The notes under the pieces were generated by a model, which did not search any database, was not told where the DNA came from, and saw only the letters and a program-made list of their open reading frames with translations. This document shows, one piece after another, positions 1-17,846 of a stretch of 64,000 nt of DNA. The stretch is from an uncultured Bacillota bacterium (GTDB lineage: Bacteria; Bacillota_I; Bacilli_A; RF39; UBA660), in NCBI GenBank assembly GCA_945867665.1, contig CAMBIR010000004.1, forward strand, positions 1 through 64,000. Direction: 5' to 3'. The stretch's first letter is position 1. Each line of letters opens with the position of its first letter. The position numbers and the translations under genes are program-made.

Positions 1-61
1 ATGTAATACCTAGTATATCATAAAATCAATGATTATTTTTAAGCGATTGCCATAAAAAATA

Positions 62-90
62 TAGACTTTTCAATTAATTTATGATATTAT
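62..90 (+). promoter_or_regulatory. Putative sigma-A promoter of the LRR gene
   Basis: TAGACT at 62-67 and TATTAT at 85-90 are separated by 17 bases. The -35 box matches poorly. The ribosome binding site AAGGAG at 124-129 precedes the start codon by 7 bases. The rest of bases 1-136 shows no gene. Confidence 0.45.
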
Positions 91-136
91 TTAAGAGAAT
101 AGGATAACTATTTGATTAGAAAAAAGGAGTACAAAA

Positions 137-2017: not shown

Positions 2018-2019
2018 TG

Positions 2020-2049
2020 AGTTCATCAAAAAAGGATGAACTTTTTTTC
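2020..2049 (+). terminator. Intrinsic terminator after the LRR gene
   Basis: Inverted repeat GTTCATC / GATGAAC with an A-rich loop, followed by seven T's. Confidence 0.85.
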
Positions 2050-2066
2050 TAAACGTTAAATTTATA

Positions 2067-2142
2067 TGCTATACTTAGAACATAAAAGGATGAATTGCAA
2101 CTGATATTTTCCCTTTTGCAACCTTTTTTCGGTAGCGCAACC
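2067..2142 (+). promoter_or_regulatory. Extended -10 promoter and phased GCAAC repeats before the HTH gene
   Basis: TGC-TATACT at 2067-2075 is an extended -10 element; no good -35 box is seen. Just downstream GCAAC occurs at 2097-2101, 2118-2122 and 2137-2141, that is at 21 and 19 base spacing, within a locally C/G-rich stretch. Same-face spacing suggests an operator, possibly for the HTH protein encoded next. This is inference. Confidence 0.4.
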
Positions 2143-2184
2143 GCAGATTATTATGCTAAACTAGGCGGTAGAAGAGGTGAAAAA

Positions 2185-3573
2185 ATGAAATTTTATGAAA
2201 AATTAGTCATTTTAAGAAAGAAAAATAATTTAAGTCAAGAACAGCTCGCGGACAAGCTAGGAGTATCCCGTCAAGCCGTTTCTAAGTGGGAGTCAGCATC
2301 CTCCGTCCCCGATATGGAAAAAATGATGCAACTCTGTAAAATTCTAAACTGTACCCTAGAAGAATTAGTAGATGATGGAGTAGGAGGAAGAAATCCAGAA
2401 AAAACATCTGATGGAAAACTAAATTTTAAAGAATACTACCAAGAATTTTTAGATTTTATTACCAAAACTTTTAATATGTTTTGGAGTATGCGTTTAGTAG
2501 AGAAAGTAAAATGTATTTTAGAAATGCTTTTTATTACATTTATCCTATATTTAGCATGGCTTATCTGTGGAACAATTATCCAAAGAGTATTTGCCAACTT
2601 AATTTATTTATTTCCGGCCCAAGTAGTGAGGGTAATTAGAAACTTATCCTCATTTATCTATACCATCTGTGGTGTTACAGTAGGTTTTATCTTACTCATT
2701 CATATCTTTAAAATTAGATATTTAGATTATTTTATTACCATTGAAGATAATAACACAAATGAAAAAAGCATCGAAACACCAATCGAAGAAGAAAAAAACA
2801 AAGAAGAACATCAAAGAACATTCATGGAAAAACACAAAAATAAAATTATCATCCGCGATCCCAAACATACTACTTATCATTTCTTTGATTTTTTAGCAAG
2901 AATTGTTGTCTTGTTCTTAAAAGGATTTAGTTTAATGATATCAATTCCTTGCATGATAAGTTTTATTTTTATTACGTTTTTCGCGTTCTCTTGCTTATTC
3001 TATTTAAAATATACGATTCTTTATTTCGGCATCTTTTTAGTTATGATAGGGGCAATACTGATGAATTACTTACTCTTAAAGTTTATTTATAACTTTATCT
3101 TTGAACAGAAAAATAACTATAAAAGAATCTTTGTTCTCTTGATTCTAAGCCTTCTTCTAGTAGGAATAGGTGCTAGTGTTAGTTTTATGACATATACTTC
3201 TTTTGAATTAACTTCTTCCTATTTAGAAAAAGACTTAATGAAAACAACAGAAGAAATCCCTTTAGCGAATGATATCAATTTACCTTTCCTAAGAAATCAA
3301 GTAGTGGAGTATAAAATAGATAATACCAAAGAAAAGGTTGAAATCGAAATCAATCATCCTAGGGAATATGAAGTTTATTTATATCAATCAGGTGATACAA
3401 GTAACACGTATTTTCTAGATTATTACACAAAAGATACTATCGGTGAATTACAAAAGATGAATGAATTATTCAAAAATCATAAAAGAATAGACTTAAGACA
3501 TAATTATCAGTTTAAAATAAAAGTTACCGCCAAAGAAGATGTCATTTTAAAATTAAAAAATTTATATGATTAA
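2185..3573 (+). CDS. Membrane-bound XRE-family transcriptional regulator
   Basis: The frame is open upstream to a TTG at 2095, but the ATG at 2185 has the ribosome binding site AGAGGTGA and starts directly on a classic Cro/CI helix-turn-helix (residues 1-65; the recognition region includes S-R-Q-A-V-S-K-W). Behind the HTH lie about six hydrophobic segments (roughly 115-190, 235-320 and 330-350) and a C-terminal soluble region (about 355-462) that should lie outside the membrane. The layout is a one-component sensor: DNA-binding head, membrane body, external tail. It lies 58 bases before two ABC transporter genes and probably controls them, by analogy with regulators of peptide-antibiotic transporters. 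The ligand is unknown. Confidence 0.8.
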   Translation: MKFYEKLVILRKKNNLSQEQLADKLGVSRQAVSKWESASSVPDMEKMMQLCKILNCTLEELVDDGVGGRNPEKTSDGKLNFKEYYQEFLDFITKTFNMFWSMRLVEKVKCILEMLFITFILYLAWLICGTIIQRVFANLIYLFPAQVVRVIRNLSSFIYTICGVTVGFILLIHIFKIRYLDYFITIEDNNTNEKSIETPIEEEKNKEEHQRTFMEKHKNKIIIRDPKHTTYHFFDFLARIVVLFLKGFSLMISIPCMISFIFITFFAFSCLFYLKYTILYFGIFLVMIGAILMNYLLLKFIYNFIFEQKNNYKRIFVLLILSLLLVGIGASVSFMTYTSFELTSSYLEKDLMKTTEEIPLANDINLPFLRNQVVEYKIDNTKEKVEIEINHPREYEVYLYQSGDTSNTYFLDYYTKDTIGELQKMNELFKNHKRIDLRHNYQFKIKVTAKEDVILKLKNLYD

Positions 3574-3631
3574 AATACTAAAAAAATGAGTAAATTCGAT
3601 ATCAGTATTTTAAATAAAAAAGGAGAAAACT

Positions 3632-5851
3632 ATGATAACCTTAAAAAATGTATCAAAATATTATTACAGTAAAGGCATTATTGCCAGTGGTTTTACCAAA
3701 ATTAATCTAACCCTAAATTTAGGAGAATTTGTAGCAATTACTGGAGAGTCAGGAAGTGGAAAAAGTACCCTTCTAAATGTCATCAGTGGCCTAGATTCCT
3801 ATGAAGAAGGAGAGATGTATATTGATGGAAAAGAAACAAGCCATTATACCGAAAATGACTTTGAAAATTATCGCCGCAAATACATCAGCAATATCTTCCA
3901 AAATTTTAATCTAGTCAATAGTTACACCGTTTATCAAAATATTGAACTAGTGATGTTAATCAACGGGAAAACAAGAAGAGAAGTCAAAGCAAAAGTCTTA
4001 GAATTAATTAAGAAAGTTGGCCTTACCAAATATAAAAATACCAAAGTATCAAAATTATCTGGTGGACAAAAACAAAGAGTAGCCATTGCTAGAGCCTTAG
4101 CCAAAGAAACCCCTATCTTAATCGCAGATGAGCCAACCGGTAACCTAGACTCTACCTCTGCTAAAGAAATTATCAAATTACTGCATGATATTTCTAAAGA
4201 TAAACTAGTCATTATTGTAACACATAACTATGACCAAGTAGAAAAGTATGTAACAAGAAAAATTAAAATGCATGATGGAAAAATTTTAGAAGATAAAGTC
4301 CTAAAAGATACAAAGAAAGTAACTTATCACGAAGAAAAGAAACAAAACTACTTAAAAGTCTTTGAAAAATTCAGATTAGCTCTTCGCAATACGTTTAATA
4401 TTTTCCCTAAATTTATTTTAGTCTTAATAGTCTACCTTTTTGTGGTATCAGCTGTCATGATGGAATATTCTTTCTTTAAAAAGCAACTTTTCATCAATGA
4501 AACTTCTGGATATAATAATTTCTTTCAAAATAAAGAACTAACTAGAATTGTAATCAAGAAGGAAAATAAAGAAGCATTTACTGAAGAAGATTATAAACAA
4601 ATCAAAAATATTCCCCATATAAAAAAGATTGTTCCTTATGACTATCTTCTAGATAACGTTGTCTATCTTCATGATGAAAATTTCTTCTACTACCAAGGAA
4701 CAATTAATGATATTAGCACATTAAACAAGAAAAAAATAACGTATGGGACACTTCCTACAAAAAGTGATGAAATTCTAATCTTAGGAAGCCCAAATGACTA
4801 CGCTCTAAATAGTTTAGGAAAAGAAATTATTGGAAAAAAAGTCAGTATCGAAATGGGCAATTCTAGTGATATGAAAAAAACTTATACCATAACGGGACTT
4901 ATTTATGATGAAGAATTAAAGTATAATGAAAATGGTTATATTTATGGTACCCAAGAGTTAGTAAATGATTTAAAATTCGTAATGAATACGTCTATTAGTC
5001 AATTAAAAGTTTTATTCCAAGAAGAATACCATGATTCTAATTCTTATGATATTCATTATAAAATTATTCCAAACGATAAAGTAAAAAGTGGTACATGCCT
5101 AATTTCTAGTGATTTTAATATGACTTGTAAAAATGAAACTTGTAAAAATTATCCCTTAAAAATAGAGGTAAATAATTTATACTATCAAGATAATTTAGAG
5201 TTAAAAGTAGAAAATACTTATGATAAAAAGAATATAAAAACGCTTCTTGACGATTATGACTATGATACTTATAATGGAGCTATCTTTATTAATCAAAGTG
5301 ATTATCAGCGAGTTTTTAATAAAGGAAATTATCAAAGCAGTATCTTTGTTGATGAAGTAAAGAACTTAGATACAGTAAATGATACCCTACAAAAAGGAAA
5401 TTTAAAGACGCTAAAAATTAAAGATACTCTAGTAACATCTGGAATTGTAGAAGCCCTAAAAATAGTAAGAGCGATTGTAACGGCTATTTTATTTATTACC
5501 TTGTTCTTTATTGCCTACTTCGTTGTACGAATTATTTTAAAATCAAGAAATACTTATTTTGGTACTATCCGTATTTTAGGAACCCGTTGTAAAGACTGTA
5601 AAAACTTATTAGAAATAGAATTATTTACCACCTCAAACATCGCTTACTTTACCTTTATTCTGCTCTTAATCTTAAATAAAAATCATATCTTAAATCTATC
5701 CATCTTATCCAATGTCATAAATTACTTAAAATTATCTGATTATATCCTATTATATTTAGCGTGCAGTCTAATGTCTTACCTAATTAGCCTTAGATTCTCA
5801 AGAAAAATATTTAAAAATAGTGCCATGAAAACCATGAGGGAGGAAGTGTAG
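3632..5851 (+). CDS. ABC transporter ATPase-permease fusion (MacB/BceAB-like), first subunit
   Basis: The 739-residue protein has an N-terminal MacB/LolD-type nucleotide-binding domain: Walker A G-E-S-G-S-G-K-S-T at about 39-47, signature L-S-G-G-Q near 143, Walker B and D-loop A-D-E-P-T-G-N-L-D near 165, and the H-loop T-H-N near 197. One membrane helix (about 260-282) follows, then a large external region, then three more helices near the C terminus. This is the FtsX/MacB permease topology fused to the ATPase. The start has ribosome binding site AAAGGAG. The next gene starts 2 bases after its stop and encodes a second fusion, so the working unit is probably a heterodimer. The family extrudes or resists peptides and toxic amphiphiles; the substrate here is unknown. 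Confidence 0.85.
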   Translation: MITLKNVSKYYYSKGIIASGFTKINLTLNLGEFVAITGESGSGKSTLLNVISGLDSYEEGEMYIDGKETSHYTENDFENYRRKYISNIFQNFNLVNSYTVYQNIELVMLINGKTRREVKAKVLELIKKVGLTKYKNTKVSKLSGGQKQRVAIARALAKETPILIADEPTGNLDSTSAKEIIKLLHDISKDKLVIIVTHNYDQVEKYVTRKIKMHDGKILEDKVLKDTKKVTYHEEKKQNYLKVFEKFRLALRNTFNIFPKFILVLIVYLFVVSAVMMEYSFFKKQLFINETSGYNNFFQNKELTRIVIKKENKEAFTEEDYKQIKNIPHIKKIVPYDYLLDNVVYLHDENFFYYQGTINDISTLNKKKITYGTLPTKSDEILILGSPNDYALNSLGKEIIGKKVSIEMGNSSDMKKTYTITGLIYDEELKYNENGYIYGTQELVNDLKFVMNTSISQLKVLFQEEYHDSNSYDIHYKIIPNDKVKSGTCLISSDFNMTCKNETCKNYPLKIEVNNLYYQDNLELKVENTYDKKNIKTLLDDYDYDTYNGAIFINQSDYQRVFNKGNYQSSIFVDEVKNLDTVNDTLQKGNLKTLKIKDTLVTSGIVEALKIVRAIVTAILFITLFFIAYFVVRIILKSRNTYFGTIRILGTRCKDCKNLLEIELFTTSNIAYFTFILLLILNKNHILNLSILSNVINYLKLSDYILLYLACSLMSYLISLRFSRKIFKNSAMKTMREEV

Positions 5852-5853
5852 AA

Positions 5854-8283
5854 ATGTTAAAATTAATCAAAGTAAATAAATATTTTCATAAAAGAAAAAA
5901 GAATCAAATTCACGTCATTGATAATACTTCCCTTGAATTAGGAAATACTGGCTTAGTTGCCTTATTAGGAGACTCTGGCTGTGGAAAGACTACACTTTTA
6001 AATGCCATAGGTGGATTGGATAAAATTAAAAGTGGATCTATCTATATTGACGAGGAAAAGATAAGTTCAAGATGGATTCATAAAGTAGATAGAATTAGAA
6101 ACTTACATATTGGTTATATCTTCCAAGATTATAAATTAATTGATTATCTATCCGTGTATGATAATGTGGCGATTGTCTTAAAAATGTTGGGCATCAAAAA
6201 TAAACAAGAGATAAAAGAAAGAGTAGAGTATGTCCTAGAATGTGTTGGTATGTTAAGATACCAAAGAAGACCTGCAGGCATGTTATCTGGAGGAGAAAGA
6301 CAACGTGTTGGCATAGCAAGAGCCATCGTTAAAAATCCAAGTATCATTTTAGCAGACGAACCAACCGGCAACCTAGACAGTAAAAATACTTTAGAAATCA
6401 TGAAAATTATTAAAGCCATCTCGAAGAACCGTCTCGTCATTTTAGTAACCCACGAACAAAATTTAGCTTCCTTTTATGCCGACCGTATCATAAGAGTCTC
6501 CGACGGAAAAGTAATCTCAGATGAAGAAAACACCTCTGACCATGACCTAGACTATGAATTAGATAACTGCTTTTATTTAAAAGATTTTAAACATCAAAAT
6601 ACTTATCAAGAAAATAATACCAGTATTTCTCTTTATCAAAATGAACAAGAACCAATCTCCTTACAAATGGTAGTAAAAAATGGAAACATCTATATCAAAA
6701 GCAATACCAATATAAAAGTAGAAGTGGTTGATGAAACAAGAGATATTGAATTTATCGATAAACATTATCAAAAAATAGCCAAAAATAAATTAGAAGAATA
6801 TCAATTTGATTTCTCTAAATTAGAAGGCTCTACCAAGAAAAAAAGATATGCTTCCATTATAAATCCTATCTCTTCAATAAAGAATGGGTTCTTAAAAGTA
6901 TTAGATTATCCTATCTTAAAGAAAATTCTTTTATTAGGTTTCTTCTTAGTCGGAATGTTTATTATGTATTCAACAAGTAGTATAGCCGCAACCTTAAAGT
7001 TACATAAAGAAGACTTTATTATAATGGATGATCATTATTTAATTATCGAAAAGAATAAATTTAGTGAAGAAGAATATTTAGAATATCAAACCCTAGAAGG
7101 CGTAGATGATTTAATTCCAGGAAATTCTCTCGTTAGTTTCCAATTTCCTTTTAATGATTATTATCAAGTATATGATTCAGGAAATGCTTCCTTATCTGGC
7201 TCTTTAGTAAATTTAAATAAAATTAGTAAAGAAGATTTAATCATGGGAACAATGCCAAAAAATAATCATGAAATCGTTATCGATGCCCTTGTCGCCAAAA
7301 GAATGATGATTGATTCAGATAATTATCAAATGGCTGGAATTACCGAAACGAAAGACTTCTTAAATCGAAAAGTAACGCTTCCTAATTTAGGCGAATTTAA
7401 AATTACAGGAATTACCAACCAAACAAAACCAAATATCTATGCGAATGAATCAATCCTTTTACCAATCGTTTTAAATAACACGGAAAATATTAAAGATAGT
7501 TTGGGTGAATCAAATACACAAAGCTTAGTAGCCTATTCCCTATATCAAAATAAAATCACCATCAAAAAAGGAAGAGCCCCTCAAAATGATAATGAAATTA
7601 TTGTAAATATCCAAAATGAAGAAAATATGCCTTTAAATAAAGAAATAAAAATATCAGATAAAGAAAAAAGAGTAGTCGTAGGCTATTACACCAGTGCTGA
7701 TGCTTATCAATATTATTTCACAACTGATAATGCTATTCTAAAAAAATACTTAACCAAAACCAAATACCTAGCCATATATCCATCTAATGAAGAAAAAGTA
7801 TTAAGTACTTTAAAAGAAAAGAAACTAAACGTTTATAATAGTTATCAAAAAAGTTTAGAAGAGTATCAAAATCAAAAAAGGGAATCGAACAAAACAACCC
7901 TAATTGTATCAGGCGTAATGCTATTAATCTCATTCATAGAAATTTTCTTAATGATTCGCTCATCCTTCTTATCTAGAGTAAAAGAAGTAGGAATTTATCG
8001 CGCAATCGGTGTAAAGAGAAGAGATATTTATCAAATGTTTTCTGGAGAAATTATTGCCATTACTTCTCTAGCAGGTCTTCCAGGACTATTATTAATGGCC
8101 TATATTCTTTATGTATTATCAGGAATTAATTATTTATCTAGAATGATTTTAGTAAATCCTCTTATCGTAATACTAGCAATTGTCTTAACTTATTTTTTAA
8201 ATTTAATCATTGGCCTATCCCCAATCTATAATACCATTAGAAAAAGACCAGCAGAGATATTAAGTCGCTACGACATCGACTAA
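5854..8283 (+). CDS. ABC transporter ATPase-permease fusion (MacB/BceAB-like), second subunit
   Basis: The 809-residue protein has the same plan as the preceding one: ATPase domain with Walker A G-D-S-G-C-G-K-T-T (about 37-45), signature L-S-G-G-E near 145, A-D-E-P-T-G-N-L-D near 167 and T-H-E near 199. A linker leads to a first membrane helix near 350-373, a large external domain, and three C-terminal helices with the FtsX-type segment V-K-E-V-G-I-Y-R-A-I-G before the second helix. The ribosome binding site GAGGAAGTG lies in the end of the upstream gene, so the two are translationally linked. Both carry intact ATPase motifs, so both sites may hydrolyse ATP. Probably exports or senses a peptide-like compound. 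Confidence 0.85.
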   Translation: MLKLIKVNKYFHKRKKNQIHVIDNTSLELGNTGLVALLGDSGCGKTTLLNAIGGLDKIKSGSIYIDEEKISSRWIHKVDRIRNLHIGYIFQDYKLIDYLSVYDNVAIVLKMLGIKNKQEIKERVEYVLECVGMLRYQRRPAGMLSGGERQRVGIARAIVKNPSIILADEPTGNLDSKNTLEIMKIIKAISKNRLVILVTHEQNLASFYADRIIRVSDGKVISDEENTSDHDLDYELDNCFYLKDFKHQNTYQENNTSISLYQNEQEPISLQMVVKNGNIYIKSNTNIKVEVVDETRDIEFIDKHYQKIAKNKLEEYQFDFSKLEGSTKKKRYASIINPISSIKNGFLKVLDYPILKKILLLGFFLVGMFIMYSTSSIAATLKLHKEDFIIMDDHYLIIEKNKFSEEEYLEYQTLEGVDDLIPGNSLVSFQFPFNDYYQVYDSGNASLSGSLVNLNKISKEDLIMGTMPKNNHEIVIDALVAKRMMIDSDNYQMAGITETKDFLNRKVTLPNLGEFKITGITNQTKPNIYANESILLPIVLNNTENIKDSLGESNTQSLVAYSLYQNKITIKKGRAPQNDNEIIVNIQNEENMPLNKEIKISDKEKRVVVGYYTSADAYQYYFTTDNAILKKYLTKTKYLAIYPSNEEKVLSTLKEKKLNVYNSYQKSLEEYQNQKRESNKTTLIVSGVMLLISFIEIFLMIRSSFLSRVKEVGIYRAIGVKRRDIYQMFSGEIIAITSLAGLPGLLLMAYILYVLSGINYLSRMILVNPLIVILAIVLTYFLNLIIGLSPIYNTIRKRPAEILSRYDID

Positions 8284-8300
8284 TCTCTGTTTCTTTTTTA
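8252..8300 (+). terminator. Terminator overlapping the end of the ABC operon
   Basis: CAGAGAT at 8252-8258 pairs with ATCTCTG at 8283-8289, followed by TTTCTTTTTT. The 5' arm lies in the last codons of the transporter gene. Confidence 0.7.
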
Positions 8301-8378
8301 TATTTAAGAAATCTCTTTTCAAAGGATTAAAAATTTGGTAAAATAAACTTAAGTAAAATAGAAGAGAAGGTCGATAAA

Positions 8379-8435
8379 ATGTGTTACTTAAAAGTTAATT
8401 CGGGGGGGGGCAAGAAAATCCTATCCCATAAATAA
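8379..8435 (+). CDS. Out-of-frame 5' end of the surface-protein gene (18 codons as read)
   Basis: ATG at 8379 has a good ribosome binding site (GAGAAGG at 8364-8370, 8 bases away). As sequenced it is read through the run of nine G's and stops at 8433-8435 after 18 codons. If the run had eight or eleven G's this start would continue into the long frame at 8410 and give basic residues K-K before the hydrophobic signal core. It is therefore best read as the true 5' end of the next gene in the OFF phase, or as a homopolymer sequencing error, not as an independent peptide. Confidence 0.6.
   Translation: MCYLKVNSGGGKKILSHK
8402..8410 (+). repeat. Poly-G tract (9 G), candidate phase-variation switch
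   Basis: Nine consecutive G's in a very AT-rich neighbourhood, located within the first codons of a surface-protein gene. One base fewer or two more joins the start at 8379 to the long frame. Homopolymer G/C tracts in this position are a known slipped-strand switch of surface genes in other bacteria. Confidence 0.7.
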
Positions 8436-8448
8436 AAAGATTCTTTTT

Positions 8449-9834
8449 TTGAGTATAATGATTATTGTTTATTTTATCACTGTAACAGGCTCAACTTATG
8501 CTTATTTTGCTTTATCTGCAAGTAGTGATAATAAAATATCAGGAACTACTGCAACTGCAAATCTAGCTCTAACAGTAAGTAAGGTTTTCCCTAGTAATAC
8601 CAACAATTTAGTCCCTCAATTAGAATCAGCCTTAGGTAGTGCTATCTCCTCTACCTATAAATGTGTAGATGGAAATAGCAATAACGTCTGTCAAGTATAT
8701 AAAATTACAATAAAAAATACATCAACCGCCAGTGTGGATATCTCGGGATATATTCATTTTTCAGGAGTAACCAATTTACCAAATTTAAAGTGGCGATTAT
8801 TAGATAGTGAATCAACACTAGGAACACATAATAGTTATAGTGCTACTGGGGCAGATAATTTATTTGTTGACCGAGTAAAAATGTCGGCGAATCAAACAAA
8901 TAATTATTATATGGTAATCTGGATTAATGAAACAAATTCAGCACAAAGTGATACAGGTACATTCAGAGCCACCATCTCTTTCAAATCTTCTAATGGTACA
9001 GGAGTAACTTCGACGATAGGAGAGATTAGAATTGGGGAAAATCTGGTTAAGAATGGTGATCTTAGTCTAAAAAATAATACCAATTTTTCAACTTTCACTT
9101 ATGGAACAGATAGTGAAGGCGGGTATTTGAGTTATACGGGAAATAGTGCCAATGTCTTAAGTGGTGATGACTATATTTATGTAGATACTAGTAGAAAATA
9201 TCAGATATCATTTGATGTCAAAAGTAATAATGAAACTTCAAAGTATTATGCTGGGTTTACAGAGTATGATATGGATATGAATTATATTGGTCAAGAGAAT
9301 GTTGCATATATAAATGGAAGTTTGACTTTTTTAAAAAAAGACTTGAAAAATGGGGATAATATCATTTATTTAAATGATGTATCGGGGTTTCAAGTAGACA
9401 GTTCAACACCTACACTTCAGTTAGGTTTAATTTTTTGGAATTATACGGATAGTACAGGTTATACATGGCCAGAGTTGACGTATTCAAGAAATGTTTGGAT
9501 AGATTTGTATACTTATGATAAAGTAGATAAAGTAAATAATACAATTACTTTAAAGTCTCCTTGGAGTCATGGAAAAGTTCCATCTGGAACTAAGTTAAGT
9601 CAATCATCGGCGGGGGCAGCATATAATTATAGCTTACTTTATGACAATGTTTTATCTTCTTCTTGGGCAAATTATAAAAATGTAATTTCTGGAATGATGA
9701 GTAATGGTGTAACTGAGGCAACCAAGTTTAAATATGGAACAGTTTATATTAAACCGTATGTTGATTTTAGTACGTATAATGGTTCTAATACAACATTTTA
9801 TATGAAAAACTTTACCTTTAAAGCACTAAACTAA
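8449..9834 (+). CDS. Secreted surface protein with TasA/camelysin-like signal peptide (frame disrupted at 5' end)
   Basis: The long frame is open from about 8410; the first start-like codon without a frame change is TTG 8449, which has no ribosome binding site. Reading from 8410 gives a basic stretch (P-I-N-K-K) followed by a hydrophobic core and G-S-T-Y-A-Y-F, the pattern of SipW-type signal peptides of TasA/camelysin proteins. Residues 30-190 resemble a TasA-like beta-sandwich, with a Cys pair (C-V-D...N-V-C-Q). After about residue 195 an N-L-V-K-N-G-D-L motif begins a carbohydrate-binding-like jelly-roll domain that reaches the end. No membrane anchor or sorting motif is present. No sipW gene is in the window. 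Likely a matrix or cell-surface protein with expression switched by the poly-G run. Confidence 0.7.
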   Translation: MSIMIIVYFITVTGSTYAYFALSASSDNKISGTTATANLALTVSKVFPSNTNNLVPQLESALGSAISSTYKCVDGNSNNVCQVYKITIKNTSTASVDISGYIHFSGVTNLPNLKWRLLDSESTLGTHNSYSATGADNLFVDRVKMSANQTNNYYMVIWINETNSAQSDTGTFRATISFKSSNGTGVTSTIGEIRIGENLVKNGDLSLKNNTNFSTFTYGTDSEGGYLSYTGNSANVLSGDDYIYVDTSRKYQISFDVKSNNETSKYYAGFTEYDMDMNYIGQENVAYINGSLTFLKKDLKNGDNIIYLNDVSGFQVDSSTPTLQLGLIFWNYTDSTGYTWPELTYSRNVWIDLYTYDKVDKVNNTITLKSPWSHGKVPSGTKLSQSSAGAAYNYSLLYDNVLSSSWANYKNVISGMMSNGVTEATKFKYGTVYIKPYVDFSTYNGSNTTFYMKNFTFKALN

Positions 9835-9846
9835 TGAAGTATTTTT

Positions 9847-9880
9847 AATCACTAGTAAATCTTGCTAGTGATTTTATTTT
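9847..9880 (+). terminator. Terminator after the surface-protein gene
   Basis: ATCACTAG at 9848-9855 pairs with CTAGTGAT at 9865-9872, followed by a T-rich run. Confidence 0.8.
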
Positions 9881-9891
9881 GGTTAATTTTA

Positions 9892-9920
9892 TTTACATCT
9901 ACATCTTTATAGTCTATAAT
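9892..9920 (+). promoter_or_regulatory. Sigma-A promoter of the acyltransferase operon
   Basis: TTTACA at 9892-9897 and TATAAT at 9915-9920 with a 17-base spacer. The next five genes are tightly packed and read from here. Confidence 0.7.
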
Positions 9921-9948
9921 ATACTAAAATAAAGTAGGTGATATGAAT

Positions 9949-10125
9949 ATGAATCAAGGGAAAAATATTAACATGAAAGAAATATTTAGTCAAAAAATAA
10001 CTAATGAGGAAAAAATAATTGCCTGTTCTCTTTTATATCAAAGTGAAACAAACCCTTTAAAAAAAGAAATTCTTTTTGAAAAATTAAAAGAACTAAAGGA
10101 GAATGGTAATGATGCAAACAAGTAA
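9949..10125 (+). CDS. Small hypothetical protein, first gene of the operon
   Basis: 58 residues, no family recognised. The ATG at 9943 is only 2 bases from the ribosome binding site AGGTG (9936-9940), so the in-frame ATG at 9949 is the better start. The product is charged, Lys/Glu-rich, largely helical, with no signal or membrane segment. Its 3' end carries the ribosome binding site of the next gene and overlaps it by 17 bases, so the two are likely translationally coupled and may interact. Confidence 0.6.
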   Translation: MNQGKNINMKEIFSQKITNEEKIIACSLLYQSETNPLKKEILFEKLKELKENGNDANK

Positions 10126-11464
10126 CTTAGAGATAAATACTATTCATGAACTTTATCAAGAGCATTTAAAAGAAATGGAAGATAGTAGTCTCTTATCAAA
10201 AATTCCAAAATTCCATCTTTGCGAAGCATGCGGAGGGACAAAGGTTGATTTAGAAACAGGAAAATGTACCTCTTGTGGTTATATCAATGAAGTGAGTAAA
10301 GAAGAGGTGCAAAAATTAAATGAAATTCTCTTAAGATTTAAAGATGTTCGTTTCAAGTTAAATGAAAAAAATAGTCATAATTTATTAGAACTCTACCTAA
10401 TTTCTCAATATAATCATTTGGCCTCTTTAAGTGAATTTATAGAAAAAAATAAAATAGAAGAACAGTTAAGAGACAAAATTAATCACAAAATCGAATTAGG
10501 AATAGCATTAAGTCCTACCGAAGATAAAATCCTATATTCTCTGGCTTGTATAGGTATAGAAAAATTAAAATACTTTTATATTCATGGCATTTTTAAAGAT
10601 ATTTTTCTAAAAAAACAAATAGTAAGCCAAAAAACATTCCAAGAAGTTTTAAAGTGTTTTGTTGTAGAAGAAATGAAAGAAATAAATGCAGGAAGAATTG
10701 AAAAAATTTTTCTAACCTGTTCTATTAGTTCCATTAAAGGGACAGCAGAAGGAAGTGCAACTCAAAAAGAAGTAAACGGAATTATGTTTGAAGAAATTGT
10801 TCTCTCCAGTGAAGAAATTGGAAAAATTTACAATGGAAAATGGTTAAATTTTGTAACTGTTTTTCATGAATTATTTCACATTAAAGATAATCTTGATATT
10901 AAAACAGGTGTTTTCACTGAAGAATTAATGCCTAGAATTAAGGATAAAGTGATTAGAGAACTTAGTCTTATAAATGAAAAAAATATCTTTGGTTACAATT
11001 TTGATAGCTACTATAAGGATAATTATTCTAGAATTAACTATGAAATTGACGCTGAAATAAATGGCATGGTTTATTTTATAAGATATCTAAAGAATTTAGG
11101 ACTAGACTTTGACAAAAAAGATGAAGAAAACCTAGATAAAGAAATAAAAGATTTTCTAAAAACAAAAACGCCTTTTCGTAATTCTATAAATCTACCATAC
11201 ATTAATTCTAACACAATAAAGGTAAATGAGTTACTGGACTTGCTAATTGAAAACTCAAAAGAAACTTTAGAAAACTATCCTCAGTTAAAAATAGAATATG
11301 TCATTGAAGATGGTAAGGTAAGGCCAAAAGACATTGATGAATTAGCAATTACAAAAAATTCATTATCTAAAACCGACCCATATTATCAAGAAAAATATTC
11401 TTATCTTGAAACTTTAATGGAAAGAAAAAAACAAGAAGAAGTCATAAAAAAAGCAAAAAAATAG
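10109..11464 (+). CDS. Zinc-ribbon protein with an HExxH metalloprotease-like motif
   Basis: Several ATG codons lie near 10103; the one at 10109 has the best spacing (7 bases) from AAAGGAG at 10095-10101. The 451-residue protein has a zinc ribbon at about residues 34-53 (C-E-A-C-G then C-T-S-C-G-Y) and a long helical region. H-E-L-F-H appears near residue 255, the zinc-binding HExxH signature of metallopeptidases, with acidic residues downstream (Y-E-I-D-A-E near 315) that could supply a third ligand. No signal peptide or membrane helix is seen, so it is cytoplasmic. It is followed 12 bases later by an acyltransferase gene. No family name can be given. Peptidase activity is inferred from the motif only. 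Confidence 0.7.
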   Translation: MMQTSNLEINTIHELYQEHLKEMEDSSLLSKIPKFHLCEACGGTKVDLETGKCTSCGYINEVSKEEVQKLNEILLRFKDVRFKLNEKNSHNLLELYLISQYNHLASLSEFIEKNKIEEQLRDKINHKIELGIALSPTEDKILYSLACIGIEKLKYFYIHGIFKDIFLKKQIVSQKTFQEVLKCFVVEEMKEINAGRIEKIFLTCSISSIKGTAEGSATQKEVNGIMFEEIVLSSEEIGKIYNGKWLNFVTVFHELFHIKDNLDIKTGVFTEELMPRIKDKVIRELSLINEKNIFGYNFDSYYKDNYSRINYEIDAEINGMVYFIRYLKNLGLDFDKKDEENLDKEIKDFLKTKTPFRNSINLPYINSNTIKVNELLDLLIENSKETLENYPQLKIEYVIEDGKVRPKDIDELAITKNSLSKTDPYYQEKYSYLETLMERKKQEEVIKKAKK

Positions 11465-11476
11465 GGAAGTGATATC

Positions 11477-12052
11477 TTGGAACCAATTTTATATCGAATA
11501 ACAAGGCCAATCATCAATATCTTATTTAAAATTTTTTTTCGACCAACTTATATTGGACTAGAAAATATTCCTGATAAAGGAAGTGTTGTTTTAGCAGGAA
11601 ATCATACCAATAATTTAGATTGCATCCTCCTTATCACTTCCACTAAAAGAACAATCCATTTTCTCGCAAAAGATGAACTTTTAAAAGGAGGAAAAAAGAT
11701 TATTTTTAAAAATATGGGCATTATCCCTGTAAATAGAAGAATCCATGATAGTGAGGCCCTGAAAAAAGCAGAAGAAGAATTAAAAGAAAATAAAGTAATT
11801 GGCATCTTTCCCGAAGGAACATTCAGTAAAGTAAAAGGACAACTGCTTCCCTTTAAAATCGGTGCTGTAAAAATGACTTATGATACCAATAGTACTTTAG
11901 TTCCATTTACTATAACAGGATCATATAAATTATTAAGAAGAGGAATAACGATCACGTTTTACCCCAAATATATAGTTCAAGAACCCTTAAGCGAAGCAAA
12001 TGAAAAATTAAGAGATTTTTTGCAAAAAGAACTAGACAGAAAGAAGGAATGA
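11477..12052 (+). CDS. 1-acyl-sn-glycerol-3-phosphate acyltransferase family protein (PlsC-like), copy 1
   Basis: The 191-residue protein has the two PlsC signatures: the catalytic H-x4-D box as N-H-T-N-N-L-D near residue 42, and the glycerol-phosphate binding F-P-E-G-T near 112. It has a hydrophobic N-terminal segment, as expected for an enzyme at the inner membrane face. It would transfer an acyl group to a lysophospholipid or similar acceptor. The start is TTG with ribosome binding site GGAAGTGA. The next gene, an acyl-activating enzyme, starts 3 bases after the stop and a second PlsC follows, so the three probably supply and use one acyl pool. Confidence 0.85.
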   Translation: MEPILYRITRPIINILFKIFFRPTYIGLENIPDKGSVVLAGNHTNNLDCILLITSTKRTIHFLAKDELLKGGKKIIFKNMGIIPVNRRIHDSEALKKAEEELKENKVIGIFPEGTFSKVKGQLLPFKIGAVKMTYDTNSTLVPFTITGSYKLLRRGITITFYPKYIVQEPLSEANEKLRDFLQKELDRKKE

Positions 12053-12055
12053 TTT

Positions 12056-13825
12056 TTGAGTATTTTAGATATGAAATTTTTTCGCTTTTTAGGTTTCAAA
12101 AAGAAACCCAATGCCCCTTGGAGCAAATACTATCAGAAAAAAGATATGAATTTATCCATCCCAGACATTTCATTATACGATAACTTCTTAAATAGCATGA
12201 AAAAATATCCAAACCATAACGCTATAGATTATTTTGGAACAAAAATTACTTATAAAGATTTAGTCTCTAAAGTAGATTTATGCGCCAAAGCATTCTTAAG
12301 TTATGGAATCAGAAAAAATGATGTTGTAACCATTTGCATGCCTAACACCCCAGAAGGAGTAATCTCTTTTTTAGCCCTAAATAAAATAGGTGCTATCTCT
12401 AACATGATTCATCCATTAGCTAGTATGAATGAAATTAAAAATGATCTTACCGAAACCGGAAGTGTCATGATGGTTTTAATTGATGTTGATTATGAAAAAA
12501 TAAAAGACATCGTGAATGATACAGAAGTTTATAAAATTATTATTGTAAGAGCTAGTGATTCCATGCCATTTTTAATGAAATTTGGCTATAACTTAACCGC
12601 AGGAAAGAAGACTCTCTTACCTAAGAAAAATAGCAAATATATCTCTTGGCATGAATTCATGAAAAATGCAGATACTTACCAAAATGATTATCATTATATT
12701 GGAAAAAAGAATACTCCTGCTGTCATGCTTCATAGTGGGGGATCTACAGGAAAGCCTAAAGCCATCGTTTTATCTAACGGCAACTTTGTTACCCTAGTAG
12801 AACAATCTAGAATTGTCTTTGATGAATTAGTTGTCGGGGATAAATGCTTATCTATCATGCCAATCTTTCATGGTTTTGGACTAGGTGTATGTGTCTATAC
12901 CCCTCTTTGTGTCGGGGCAGAATGTATTTTAATTCCCCAGTTTAAAGCCGATGAATTTGATAAAATCTTAACCAAGCATAAGCCAGAATTCGTAATTGGC
13001 GTGCCAACTTTATTTGAAGCAATGATGAAAAGTGAAAGAGAATCCGCCTTAAAACTAAACTATATCAAATATATCATCTCTGGAGGAGATACCCTAAGTT
13101 TAAGTCTAGAAAAAAGAATCAATACTTTTCTAAAAGACCATGGCGCAACCACTAGAATTGTCCAAGGATATGGCATGAGCGAATGCTTAGCCGCTATTTC
13201 CCTAGGCTTTAAAAATATTCCGGAGTATGGCTCTATTGGTGTTCCTTTCCCTGGATGTTATGTTGGAATATTCTCGCCAGAAGATAAAGAAGTTCCCTAT
13301 GGAGAAGAAGGAGAAATTTGTATCAGCGGTCCTAATGTCATGTTGGGCTATTACAACAACGAAAAAGAAACCAATGCTGCTTTACACATCCATGAAGATG
13401 GAAATATTTGGCTTCATTCTGGAGACTTAGGAAAAATGAACGAGAATGGTTTTATTCGGTATACTGGTCGCTTAAAACGTCTAATTGTAACATCAGGATA
13501 TAATGTATATCCCGTTCAAATCGAGGAATTATTAGAAACTCATCCCGCTATCATGCAAGCAACCGTAGTAGGCATTCCTCATCCTTATAAACAGCAAGTA
13601 CCAAAAGCCTTTATTGTCCTAAATAAAGGCTATAAAGAAAGCGAAACCCTAACCAACGAATTAAAAGAATTAGTAGACAAAAATCTTCCGAAGTATTCTA
13701 AAATATACGAATATGAATTTAGAAAGTCTCTTCCCAAAACAATGGTGGGAAAAGTAGACTTTCGTCGCCTTCAAGAAGAAAATAATAAACGAAGAAAGAG
13801 TGAAGAAAATGTCAAAAAAATTTAA
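12056..13825 (+). CDS. Acyl-CoA synthetase / AMP-dependent fatty acid ligase
   Basis: The 589-residue member of the ANL adenylating superfamily has the phosphate loop S-G-G-S-T-G-K-P-K near residue 227, Y-G-M-S-E near 371, the S-G-D-L ATP ribose-binding motif near 458, and the C-terminal hinge G-R-L-K-R-L. The catalytic Lys appears in G-K-V-D-F near 565. It activates a carboxylic acid, probably a fatty acid, to an acyl-adenylate and then a thioester. The start is TTG, ribosome binding site AAGGAATGA. Sitting between two PlsC-like genes, it probably activates exogenous or recycled fatty acids for phospholipid synthesis. The exact chain length and acceptor (CoA or ACP) cannot be told from sequence. 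Confidence 0.85.
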   Translation: MSILDMKFFRFLGFKKKPNAPWSKYYQKKDMNLSIPDISLYDNFLNSMKKYPNHNAIDYFGTKITYKDLVSKVDLCAKAFLSYGIRKNDVVTICMPNTPEGVISFLALNKIGAISNMIHPLASMNEIKNDLTETGSVMMVLIDVDYEKIKDIVNDTEVYKIIIVRASDSMPFLMKFGYNLTAGKKTLLPKKNSKYISWHEFMKNADTYQNDYHYIGKKNTPAVMLHSGGSTGKPKAIVLSNGNFVTLVEQSRIVFDELVVGDKCLSIMPIFHGFGLGVCVYTPLCVGAECILIPQFKADEFDKILTKHKPEFVIGVPTLFEAMMKSERESALKLNYIKYIISGGDTLSLSLEKRINTFLKDHGATTRIVQGYGMSECLAAISLGFKNIPEYGSIGVPFPGCYVGIFSPEDKEVPYGEEGEICISGPNVMLGYYNNEKETNAALHIHEDGNIWLHSGDLGKMNENGFIRYTGRLKRLIVTSGYNVYPVQIEELLETHPAIMQATVVGIPHPYKQQVPKAFIVLNKGYKESETLTNELKELVDKNLPKYSKIYEYEFRKSLPKTMVGKVDFRRLQEENNKRRKSEENVKKI

Positions 13826-14405
13826 AGGAGAATTCGGTTATAAACTCCTAACCCCACTCATGAGAGTATTATTTAATCTTTACTACCATCCCAAAATCAT
13901 AAACAAAGAAGTTATTCCTAAAAATGGACCTATTCTAATTGTAGGAAACCATAAACATGTCTACGACCAGTGTCTAACCATCATAGCCACCAAACGCGTC
14001 ATTCATTATATGGCCAAAAAAGAATACTTCGACGGACACCTGTCTTGGTTTTTTAAATTTGTTGGCTGTATCCCCGTTAATCGCCAAATTAAAGATACCG
14101 CCGCAACCGAACGAGCTCTTGAGATTCTAAGAAATGATGGAGCAATCGGACTCTTTCCCGAAGGAACAAGAAATAAAACCAAAGATATTTTTCTTCTTCC
14201 CTTTAAGTTTGGCACCGTCTCTATGGCTAAGAAAACAAATGCAACTATTATTCCCTTTGGCCTAACGGGCGACTATAAATTTAGAAGCAAGAATTTAGTC
14301 GTTCGCTATGGAACACCTTTTAAAGTAGGGGATATGTCCCTAGAGGAGGCAAATGATAAACTCTATCATGAAGTAGAAAAATTAATGCAAGAAAATTTAA
14401 AATAA
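13809..14405 (+). CDS. 1-acyl-sn-glycerol-3-phosphate acyltransferase family protein (PlsC-like), copy 2
   Basis: The 198-residue protein has the H-x4-D box N-H-K-H-V-Y-D near residue 49 and F-P-E-G-T-R near 116, both intact, and a single N-terminal hydrophobic stretch. It overlaps the end of the ligase gene by 17 bases. A GTG at 13800 is in frame, but the ATG at 13809 is better placed behind AGAAAGAG. It differs clearly from copy 1 (for example the extended E-G-T-R-N-K box), so the two may act on different positions or acceptors. It is the last gene of the operon. Confidence 0.85.
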   Translation: MSKKFKGEFGYKLLTPLMRVLFNLYYHPKIINKEVIPKNGPILIVGNHKHVYDQCLTIIATKRVIHYMAKKEYFDGHLSWFFKFVGCIPVNRQIKDTAATERALEILRNDGAIGLFPEGTRNKTKDIFLLPFKFGTVSMAKKTNATIIPFGLTGDYKFRSKNLVVRYGTPFKVGDMSLEEANDKLYHEVEKLMQENLK

Positions 14406-14421
14406 CAAATTTAACTAATTG

Positions 14422-14449
14422 TTGATTTTTCTTTGCTTTATGGTATAAT
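14422..14449 (+). promoter_or_regulatory. Extended -10 promoter of the alpha-CTD-repeat gene
   Basis: TTGATT at 14422-14427, TG at 14441-14442 and TATAAT at 14444-14449, spacer 16. Confidence 0.75.
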
Positions 14450-14475
14450 AGGGTTCCTAAAGAGGAGGAACTTTA

Positions 14476-15219
14476 ATGAATAAATTAATGCCTATAGAAG
14501 AATTGCCACTATCTTCTAGAACAATTTCCGAACTAAAAAGAGAACAAATTCGTACCGTTCAAGATTTAATTCTCTGCGATGAAGAAAAACTAATGAATTT
14601 TAGAAAATTGTACTATCGAAGGATATATGAAATAAAAAATGCGGTTCATGAATTAGGTTTTATTTTTGCCAATGAAGATATTTCAGTCCTAAAAACACCA
14701 GATGATTACCTAGTACAAAGTATTGCTATTTTAGATATCCCATTAAATCCATTGAAAGCCTTAAAAAGTGCAAAAATTTACACAATAGGAGAGCTTTTAT
14801 CTTATAAAAGCCATGAGTTAAAGCAAATCCCCTTTATCGATAATTTTAGCATTCGCTTAATAAAAGCATCTCTTCATGCTAAAGGAATCATTTTCCAAGA
14901 TGAAGATAATTCAATTCTAGATGAAAGAAATCATAACATTGAGACATATTTATCAGAAGAAAATCTCCAACAACCCAAAGAGAAAATTGAAATCTTAAAT
15001 TTACCAAATTATTTATATTGTATTCTAAAAAGAAATAAAATTAATACCGTCGAAGAATTATTATCTTATGACATTATGTCTTTAAGCAAAATAAAGCATC
15101 TAGGCATCGCAAATATAAAAAAGATTATAGACATTCTTTCTATACATGGCTATCATTTTGAAGATGAAAATTCCATAATCTTCCTTAAAACAAAAGTAAA
15201 AAAAATTGCCAAAATTTAA
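14476..15219 (+). CDS. Protein of three RNA polymerase alpha-CTD-like helix-hairpin-helix repeats
   Basis: The 247-residue protein consists almost only of three copies of a fold seen in the C-terminal domain of RNA polymerase alpha (about residues 5-68, 83-147 and 166-236). Each copy begins I-x-x-L-x-(L/I)-P-L-like, has a middle K-x-x-I-x-T-(V/I)-x-(D/E)-L-L motif, and ends in G-(F/I/Y)-x-F-x-x-E-D/E. No catalytic domain, signal peptide or membrane segment is present. The alpha-CTD binds UP-element DNA and transcription factors, so a DNA-binding or polymerase-binding role is plausible but not shown. It has its own promoter, ribosome binding site AGAGGAGG and terminator, so it is a single-gene unit. 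Confidence 0.7.
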   Translation: MNKLMPIEELPLSSRTISELKREQIRTVQDLILCDEEKLMNFRKLYYRRIYEIKNAVHELGFIFANEDISVLKTPDDYLVQSIAILDIPLNPLKALKSAKIYTIGELLSYKSHELKQIPFIDNFSIRLIKASLHAKGIIFQDEDNSILDERNHNIETYLSEENLQQPKEKIEILNLPNYLYCILKRNKINTVEELLSYDIMSLSKIKHLGIANIKKIIDILSIHGYHFEDENSIIFLKTKVKKIAKI

Positions 15220-15222
15220 AGT

Positions 15223-15250
15223 AAGTACAACTTTTTGTACTTATTTTTTT
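15223..15250 (+). terminator. Terminator after the alpha-CTD-repeat gene
   Basis: AAGTACA at 15223-15229 pairs with TGTACTT at 15236-15242, then ATTTTTTT. Confidence 0.85.
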
Positions 15251-15287
15251 AAATTATCATAAAATTTCATGAAAGGGGGATTTATTA

Positions 15288-15404
15288 ATGGAAAATACTT
15301 ATCAAGTAATAACCCATTACAATACGTTATCTCTAACCATAGAGGAAGTACTAACGAAGTATTTTACCAACAAAATAAAAATGAACTTCTATGATGAAGA
15401 ATAA
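15288..15404 (+). CDS. 38-residue microprotein preceding the recombinase
   Basis: The ORF starts ATG 15288 behind a very strong ribosome binding site (AAGGGGGA, 7 bases spacing) and ends TAA 15404, overlapping the recombinase start by 14 bases. The peptide begins M-E-N-T-Y-Q and contains an amphipathic stretch S-L-T-I-E-E-V-L-T-K-Y-F. Strong initiation signal and overlap suggest a real gene translationally coupled to the recombinase. Possible roles are a recombination directionality factor, a regulator, or a coupling leader; none is shown. The sequence from 15347 to 15367 recurs at 25431-25451. Confidence 0.6.
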   Translation: MENTYQVITHYNTLSLTIEEVLTKYFTNKIKMNFYDEE

Positions 15405-16902
15405 AGTAGGCATATACCTTCGGCTTTCTAGAGAAGATGAAAAAGATAAAGAAAGCGGTTCCATTAAAAATCAAAGGGCAATATTAATGGATTACATCAA
15501 AGAACATCACTTAAATTTTATCGCTGAATATGTTGATGATGGCATCTCTGGTACCACTTTCCAAAGACCAGGCTTTAAAAGATTAATTGAAGATGTAAAG
15601 AAGAAAAAAATAGACACCGTCTTAACCAAAGATACTTCTAGATTAGGACGAGATCATATCGAATTTGGCTATTATGTAGAAAAATTTTTTCCAGAAAATA
15701 ACGTAAGGTATATTGCCGTTAATGATAATATTGATACAAACAACACTGAGAATGATATGCTTCTTTTTAAAAGCGCTTATAACGATATGTATGTAAAAGA
15801 TATTTCAAAGAAAATTAGAACCAGTCTTTATATTAAGAAAAAACAAGGTGAATTTGTTGGCGCTTATGCACCATATGGCTATCAAAAAGATATTTATGAT
15901 AAGCACAAATTAGTCATCGAAGAAACATCTGCCAATATCGTTAGAAGAATCTTTAATCTCTTTGTCAATCACCATTCTATTACCACTATCGCTGATACTC
16001 TAACAAAAGATAACATTCCCATCCCAAGTATTCAAAAAGGAATGAACAGAGGCATCAAATCATCTCTTTTTGGTATCTGGACCTCAAGAACCATAACCGA
16101 TATTTTAACCAACCCAACTTACATAGGCAATCTAACCCAAGGACGCAGTAAAAAAATCAACTATAAATCTAAAAAAAGAATTCATACCAAAAGAGAAGAT
16201 TGGATTACCAAAGAAAACAGTTGCCCAAAGATTATTGATGAAGAACTTTTCTTCCTCGCAAACACAATGTATCAAGCTAATTTACATGAATATAAAAAAA
16301 ATAGTAATGACCTTCTTTTAAAAGGATTTGTCTATTGTGCTGAATGTGGACATAAAATTAGTTTTCGAAAAATCTCTAACAAATACATATACGGAGAATG
16401 TAATTATTATTTAAAATATAAAAAATATAATGCTTGTACAACTCATAGCATCAAATATGAAACTCTAGAAAAACTTATCTTAAACGAAATAAGAAATCTC
16501 TTAAAAAAAGTTAACCAAGAAAAAATCATCCAATCAATCTATCAAAGTGTTTTAAATGAAGTAAAAGAAAAAAATAACAAAAGAATAACTTTTCTAAGGA
16601 AAGGACAAGAAGTAAACCAAATCAAACTAGATTCCCTTTATGAAGATAAACTAGCAAAGTTAATTAATCAAGAAAATTACTTTCGAATGAAAGAGAAAAT
16701 TGAGACAGAAACTAAAAAAATGAAGCAAGAAATAAACCACTTAGAAGAAAAAAATAGAACATTAGAAACAAATAATAAAGAAAAACAATTATTAAAAAAT
16801 AATCCAATAGATAAAATCTTCTTAAGTACTTTAATTGAAAAAATTACCCTCACTCGTGACAAAAAAATCAACATTTATTATCGTGTGAATTGTAACTTTT
16901 AA
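15391..16902 (+). CDS. Large serine recombinase (resolvase/invertase superfamily)
   Basis: The 503-residue protein has an N-terminal resolvase catalytic domain (about 3-150) with nucleophile Ser in Y-L-R-L-S-R-E-D near residue 13 and the arginines T-S-R-L-G-R-D. Next are the recombinase DNA-binding domain (about 165-265), a zinc ribbon (C-A-E-C near 314 with later C-N and N-A-C), and a C-terminal coiled coil (about 370-470). This is the architecture of TnpX, SpoIVCA and phage integrases, which join two att sites without needing long homology. All key residues are present, so it is probably active. The stop lies 8 bases before the truncated ydcC-like coding region, the position where such enzymes have their attachment site. 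It shares its start region with the upstream microprotein. Confidence 0.9.
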   Translation: MMKNKVGIYLRLSREDEKDKESGSIKNQRAILMDYIKEHHLNFIAEYVDDGISGTTFQRPGFKRLIEDVKKKKIDTVLTKDTSRLGRDHIEFGYYVEKFFPENNVRYIAVNDNIDTNNTENDMLLFKSAYNDMYVKDISKKIRTSLYIKKKQGEFVGAYAPYGYQKDIYDKHKLVIEETSANIVRRIFNLFVNHHSITTIADTLTKDNIPIPSIQKGMNRGIKSSLFGIWTSRTITDILTNPTYIGNLTQGRSKKINYKSKKRIHTKREDWITKENSCPKIIDEELFFLANTMYQANLHEYKKNSNDLLLKGFVYCAECGHKISFRKISNKYIYGECNYYLKYKKYNACTTHSIKYETLEKLILNEIRNLLKKVNQEKIIQSIYQSVLNEVKEKNNKRITFLRKGQEVNQIKLDSLYEDKLAKLINQENYFRMKEKIETETKKMKQEINHLEEKNRTLETNNKEKQLLKNNPIDKIFLSTLIEKITLTRDKKINIYYRVNCNF

Positions 16903-16914
16903 GGGCATCAGTTG
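16903..16914. other. Probable recombination junction (att half-site) between recombinase and ydcC-like gene
   Basis: Homology to the YdcC-type lipoprotein begins abruptly at codons V-V-T-P from 16911, 8 bases after the recombinase stop codon; upstream the frame meets a stop at 16893-16895. The crossover should lie within these bases. The core dinucleotide cannot be assigned without the other junction. Confidence 0.5.
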
Positions 16915-17846
16915 TAACCCCTTCTTTAAATAAAAGTTTCAAATTCCAAAGTGATTGGCCTTACAACAACTCTCAAGTTTATTTACTAAATTCTATCATT
17001 GATGATATAAAAACCGATGAAGATAGAACTTTTAAAACAAATGAAAGTAGTTACATACTAACATCTAAAGTAAATTATCCAAATAACAAAACACTAACCA
17101 AACAACATATCTACCTAGATAAAAACTTAAAAATTACAAAAGTAGAAGTTGTCGATAAAAATGATAATATTCAAATTGTGATGAACTTTAAAAAACAAGA
17201 ATTAAACAAAAAATTTGATAAAAATTATTTTGAACTAAGTAACATTCTCAAGATGAATCAAAAAAATGATACCATCAAAAAAGAAGAAAGCACCAAAGAA
17301 AATAGTGCTACCAATAACAATAACACGACTACGCCAAGTCAAAATAATAATGAAAATACGGAAAATAAGACAAATAATAACCAATCGGGGAATAATAATA
17401 CAGAGAATAATAACACGATAAATAATAGCAATAATAACAATAACCAAAATAATAACAATCCATCTTCTAACCAAGAAACAAGTTCAAGTGAGAAAACAAC
17501 AGCCAAAATTAATGATGTTATCTATCCAATGTACTTACCAGATAATACTTATCTTACTAGCCAAGATACTGTAGATACAAAAGAGGGGAGTCGCTTAATT
17601 TTAACTTTTGGTGGTGATAGTTCCTTTGTTTTAGTAGAGGAGACTGCCTCTAAATCAGATGAAGGCCTTGTCATTCCTGTAAGTGGAGAGTTTGATTTCC
17701 TATCAGATGTCATCGGAGTTATTGGAAATAAGTCCTTATCATGGCATAGTAATGGTATTGATTATTACATGACCAGTGATACTCTAGAAGTCGCAGAATT
17801 AGTTGAGATTGCCCGTTCCGTTAGTGTCCTACCAGTAAGTAAATAA
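16911..17846 (+). pseudogene. ydcC: 3' part of a YdcC/LolA-like sporulation lipoprotein gene, interrupted by the recombinase element
   Basis: From 16911 the frame reads V-V-T-P-S-L-N-K-S-F and on through W-P-Y-N-N-S-Q-V-Y-L-L, the mid-protein signature of Bacillus YdcC-type LolA-like lipoproteins, up to about 17270. An Asn-rich linker (about 17285-17485) and a further globular domain follow, beginning P-M-Y-L-P and ending A-R-S-V-S-V-L-P. The signal peptide, lipobox and first half of the LolA fold are missing and are not found elsewhere in the window. An internal ATG at 17178 opens a 222-codon frame but has no good ribosome binding site and starts inside the domain. B. subtilis ydcC is a mother-cell sporulation gene, so the split resembles sigK/skin. 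Whether excision restores the gene is unknown. Confidence 0.7.

Follow-up and report, generated by a model that had tools for sequence, protein, structure and literature searches.

A non-phage serine recombinase island splits a probable spore lipoprotein gene in uncultured gut Bacilli and is probably excised during sporulation

Sporulation genes are interrupted by the intervening elements skin, SPbeta, vfbin, vrin, gin and yin, and the few described cases of programmed gene rearrangement in spore-forming bacteria come from cultured Bacillus, Geobacillus and Clostridium. The skin element of sigK (B. subtilis; C. difficile, PMC5025042) resembles the locus reported here in that a mother-cell gene is split and one end of the element encodes a large serine recombinase; its excision factor in C. 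difficile, CD1234, is controlled by sigma-E and SpoIIID (PMC5025042). However, skin is prophage-like and lies in sigK, whereas the gene split here encodes a lipoprotein and no phage structural genes are recognisable in the island. SPbeta in spsM (PMC4191935, PMC6957869) and yin in yabG of C. botulinum (PMC10747680) interrupt a sporulation gene that is restored by attL x attR recombination, as would be the case here, but both are phages or prophage-like and occupy other genes, whereas ours is a non-phage island. The gin element in gerE of Bacillus cereus ATCC10987, which has three recombinases and whose excision has been shown (PMC5595907), is also a non-phage island in a sporulation gene; it combines a large serine recombinase with an extra factor, for which there is a candidate here, and its gene is rejoined in sporulation (PMC5595907). 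It differs in gene and host, and in our island, which is known from sequence alone, one recombinase is recognised. Because it lacks recognisable phage structural and packaging genes, the island resembles gin more than skin, and gin appears to be its nearest described counterpart. By all sequence-level criteria the locus is a sporulation-gene intervening element, but not skin in the strict sense. An earlier note on this DNA had called it skin-type, which holds for the split gene with its recombinase and does not hold for phage structural and packaging genes, which, unlike in skin, are not recognisable here.

The window, that is, the whole stretch of DNA analysed, covers positions 1-64000 of contig C4 in genome G000, which has 1.3 Mb in 28 contigs and is 90% complete. 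The features on which the analysis rests are as follows.

1..16910, no strand: right part of the island, in synteny with the whole 16.9 kb island of the congener G005; the left end is on contig C17
137..2017, + strand: cargo, leucine-rich-repeat protein (Pfam LRR_4, LRR_8)
2095..3573, + strand: cargo, HTH (XRE) membrane regulator (Pfam HTH_3; 61% identity to the G005 island gene)
3632..8283, + strand: cargo, two ABC transporters of MacB/FtsX type (NCBIfam; Pfam ABC_tran, FtsX; 71% and 72% identity to G005 island genes)
11477..14405, + strand: cargo, acyltransferase, AMP-forming acyl ligase and acyltransferase (79%, 88% and 83% identity to G005 island genes, order kept)
14476..15219, + strand: cargo, protein with three RNA-polymerase-alpha C-terminal domains (Pfam PF03118, three stretches)
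15258..15265, + strand: CATAAAAT, candidate mother-cell sigma -10 box ahead of the small ORF; suggestive only, the sigma-E matrix not being significant here
15288..15404, + strand: ORF of 38 codons that overlaps the start of the recombinase gene, a candidate for a recombination directionality factor; similar ORFs occur elsewhere, function inferred
15391..16902, + strand: large serine recombinase of the island (Pfam Resolvase, Recombinase, Zn_ribbon_recom)
16888..16910, + strand: right arm of the attachment site, AATTGTAACTTTTAAGGGCATCA, an inverted repeat of the left arm TGATACCCTTTAAAGTTACAAAT on C17
16911..16914, + strand: GTTG crossover core, with which the 5' half on C17 also ends; its GT is common to every split gene of the family
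16911..17846, + strand: 3' half of a GerS/YdcC-like lipoprotein gene, 311 codons open to the stop; full-length relatives are known

The frame of the 3' half opens at 16911 without a start codon, and its first residues are V-V-T-P-S-L-N-K. The open reading frame coordinates confirm that only 8 bases separate it from the recombinase stop at 16902, as the earlier note had observed of this abrupt start. In relatives with an intact gene, a comparison that the note had proposed, about 95 extra residues precede the V-V-T-P point. The note had also found the other half absent from the window and suggested that a 5' part with a lipobox be sought elsewhere in the genome. Such a half is present once in G000, on another contig (C17:18852-19130); it carries a lipobox, its frame is open to ...GVY, just ahead of the V-V-T-P point, and it shares a short junction with the 3' half. 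A second or intact copy of the gene was not found in the G000 contigs. On C17 the 5' half ends in TAT-GTTG and is followed by the element sequence ATACCCTTTAAAGTTACAAAT, whereas in the window AATTGTAACTTTTAAGGGCATCA stands directly ahead of the 3' half, which opens with GTTGTAACC. In silico removal of everything between the two cores yields GTC TAT GTT GTA ACC, which reads V-Y-V-V-T (GVY joined to VVTP) as in the intact relatives, and a single recombination between the island ends would thus restore the reading frame exactly. The island ends form a near-perfect inverted repeat about a central GT, which fits the expectation for a serine integrase site.

The earlier note had placed the far end of the element to the left, up to or beyond the window start, and the left end was indeed located on C17, where the island extends 338 bases beyond the 5' half. 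The end of C17 and the start of C4 carry the same terminal inverted repeat (GGCAATCGCTTAAAAA / TTTTTAAGCGATTGCC), which looks like that of an insertion sequence; a copy of this insertion sequence probably fills the gap between C17 and C4, and would probably explain the contig break. In G005, both halves lie on one contig (2375-2653 and 19553-20506), 16.9 kb apart, with the island between them.

The islands of G000 and G005 share the same order of regulator, two ABC transporters, acyltransferase, ligase, acyltransferase and recombinase. The dN/dS between the two genomes was 0.14 for the 5' half and, for the 3' half taken in two parts, 0.09 and 0.08; synonymous sites are close to saturation, which makes these values rough, although they are far below 1. 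The island genes showed synonymous divergence as high as that of the gene halves, which indicates that the island most likely predates the split of the two species. Both halves appear to be kept intact by purifying selection. A dead disruptive insertion, in which the gene is broken and decaying, would agree with a split gene that has no intact copy in G000. However, a long-broken, functionless gene is expected to decay, and the two open halves with low dN/dS, the precise attachment ends and the intact recombinase make this explanation very unlikely.

The gene is present in 244 of 291 family genomes, and in 38 of these 244, from 31 genera, it is split at the identical codon with the core GT, a recurrence that excludes a chance origin of the break. 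The 38 were counted by hand from match tables after follow-up of genomes with two or partial matches; five are represented by one half and its island end, and the count leaves out fragments at contig edges as well as G187, which has a frameshift, and G189, which has two copies. The attachment arms fall into few classes, and the cut is always ahead of the same V codon. Wherever both halves were recovered they were open and without visible decay, the only early stop being in G206. In ten genomes of the survey the two halves share a contig, and their islands measure about 4.7 to 18.6 kb; G005 is the eleventh such genome. An assembly or binning artefact might be suspected, since nearly all of the genomes listed by name are metagenome assemblies; however, the same junction logic in 38 independent genomes, together with the ten complete single-contig islands and that of G005, leaves this explanation next to no probability. 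In a class-wide sample, the gene was whole in all genomes of other families that have it.

The intact protein matches GerS and GerS-related germination lipoprotein models over almost the full length of the models, below their curated cut-offs, and a profile search of the PDB returned GerS (7rag) with an E value of 1.5e-4. GerS of C. difficile (PDB 7rag; PMC8496864, PMC6021603) is a LolA-fold spore lipoprotein that matches the N-terminal domain of the split gene; its match lies below the family's curated cut-off, and the split gene has an extra C-terminal domain. A predicted model (mean pLDDT 78) shows a LolA fold and a second domain, with structural matches that include RseB, MucB, LolA and GerS. 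The protein had been described from the window as a YdcC/LolA-like lipoprotein; it is nearer to the GerS/LolA-fold spore lipoproteins than the name YdcC implies. A pair of boxes, [GT][CA]ATAww followed after 13 or 14 bases by CATATAAT, lies about 18 to 34 bases ahead of the start of the gene in 59 of 68 genomes; we take it to be close to the B. subtilis sigma-E consensus. Over the 291 genomes, the gene and spoIVA occurred together in 235, the gene alone was absent in 21, spoIVA alone in 9, and neither was present in 26 (odds ratio 32, p 5e-17). The GerS likeness, the sigma-E-type promoter and the co-occurrence with spoIVA suggest a sporulation role for the split gene, and the product is probably a GerS-like LolA-fold lipoprotein that acts in the spore envelope.

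The organism has SigG, encoded in the window as the earlier note had read it. The forespore gene sigG is intact in nearly all family genomes and never clearly interrupted; five truncated sigG matches terminate at or close to the end of a contig and were rejected as interruptions. Mixed sporulation ability has been inferred in related uncultured Bacilli orders (PMC10868615).

In the predicted model, the crossover falls inside strand 91-96 of the LolA-domain beta sheet, which implies that neither half could form the LolA domain alone. This position bears on the alternative that the halves work as two separate polypeptides without rejoining. Both frames are open, as this alternative demands, but the 3' half has no start codon, signal peptide or lipobox, and the cut is predicted to lie within the beta sheet, so we regard it as highly improbable.

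The 16 recombinases recovered at the ydcC site, including that of the window, form one clade with support of 100/100, and separate, fully supported clades hold the spoIVA recombinases and those beside a LysM gene. With one clade per target gene, the recombinases show specialisation by target. We found no relatives of these recombinases in viral contigs. A small ORF similar to that at 15288..15404 precedes 15 of the 16 ydcC-site recombinases and is also found ahead of those at spoIVA and the LysM gene; islands at other sites carry it as well. By analogy with CD1234 and SprB, it is a candidate directionality factor. CATA boxes stand just upstream of the small ORF in ydcC-, spoIVA- and LysM-site elements, with CATACAAT in all four spoIVA elements. 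A sigma-E matrix scan upstream of the unit formed by the recombinase and the small ORF was significant at only 2 of 16 ydcC-site loci, and sigma-E control of the recombinase is therefore not claimed.

A family search of ten large island proteins gave no match to capsid, head, packaging, terminase or lysis families, and one of the ten matches a tail family. No relaxase was recognised in the window part of the island, nor by eye in the G005 island.

The lipoprotein gene is not the only gene in pieces. The spoIVA gene of G000 is split at residue 121 into C18:50-415 and C10:46-1155 (L323, L324), with both parts open, and about 20 genomes of the family, this one included, have a spoIVA break near that residue. 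The protein encoded by the split gene of G000 and the intact SpoIVA of G005 are 100% identical, with synonymous divergence of 0.17-0.18 vs above 1 for the lipoprotein gene. In three genomes, G102, G205 and G212 (L328-L333), there is a second spoIVA break near residue 400 with different end sequences. Elsewhere in G000 (C1:50779-52305, L273), a recombinase stands directly ahead of a LysM-repeat gene without a 5' part, and the attachment sequence at this site is similar in three genomes (L273, L278, L281). The 3' part of an amidase-like/LysM gene lies near a recombinase on G000:C15 (L274) and G006:C17 (L286), both open at GG.GAE.IYALRN; the amidase assignment was made by eye, as Pfam matched only LysM. 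We put it at somewhat better than even odds that in this family several spore genes (the GerS-like lipoprotein gene, spoIVA, LysM and amidase/LysM) are routinely in pieces, each hit by its own recombinase lineage on small non-phage islands, and that sporulation would need several programmed excisions per mother cell.

Related recombinases also adjoin genes without an obvious spore role, an observation that speaks against a tie to sporulation: a P-type ATPase gene (L282, G003:C98) and a ZIP transporter gene (L280, G012:C4) look truncated by eye beside them. The valS gene is mostly whole and seems interrupted near residue 275 in G012:C21/C24, G083:C1 and G054:C48; in G083, a complete second valS adjoins the truncated one. 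These few apparent interruptions suggest that the elements are not confined to spore genes.

Some assemblies contain signs of a joined allele beside the split one, an indirect pointer to excision. A contig of G001 stops precisely at TATGTTG, and the following contig, which overlaps it by exactly 141 bases, runs into the joined gene; the odds of a break at the core base by chance are about 4 in 10,000. Joined and split contigs of G206 have 178 bases of the 3' half in common at 98.9%, and in G161 the same 141-base overlap starts exactly at the spoIVA core. Contigs of this kind are expected when joined and split alleles are assembled together, and strain mixtures could give the same. The sequences of G143, considered as another case of coexisting joined and split alleles, are 83% identical and belong to two lineages, and the case was rejected. 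A search with patterns for two arm classes other than that of the window found no excised-circle junction in the 291 family genomes or in viral contigs.

We propose, with a probability of roughly 0.78, that a non-phage island with a large serine recombinase, sitting at one codon of a mother-cell sporulation gene, is excised in the mother cell during sporulation with restoration of the frame. The recombinase, together with the small protein encoded upstream of it, would excise the island and so restore a lipoprotein that the spore envelope requires; in the forespore, the chromosome would retain the island. The intervening-element reading already offered in the earlier note is strongly supported by the checks that were run.

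A different account would be that an integrative mobilizable island merely uses a conserved codon as its attachment site, with random or transfer-linked excision outside developmental control, and with the sporulation of its carriers impaired or lost. In agreement with this account, the islands of G008 and G081 at the same codon carry a Mob_Pre relaxase, and split and intact species occur together in many genera, so that islands come and go. However, the halves appear to be under purifying selection and the island seems to have been fixed since before G000 and G005 diverged; furthermore, the lipoprotein gene and spoIVA are both split in G000 with open parts, and sigG is retained as described above. 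We therefore consider a mobilizable island of this sort unlikely, although less so than the other alternatives, and retain excision in the mother cell as the preferred explanation.

The locus thus represents a known kind of system in which the target gene and the lineage are new and the scale is unusual. We know of no report of an interrupted gerS. A literature search, with most subscription journals outside it, found no report of an interruption of spoIVA or ydcC; developmental rearrangement would now extend to an uncultured gut lineage, in a lipoprotein gene and in spoIVA. The split affects about one in six species that have the lipoprotein gene, and probably several genes in one 1.3 Mb genome. 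A spore gene that is split in a metagenome assembly need not be a pseudogene, and such genes can make spore formers look deficient. The family also offers many natural replicates, in the form of attachment sites, recombinases and candidate directionality factors, for testing how mobile islands become tied to host development.
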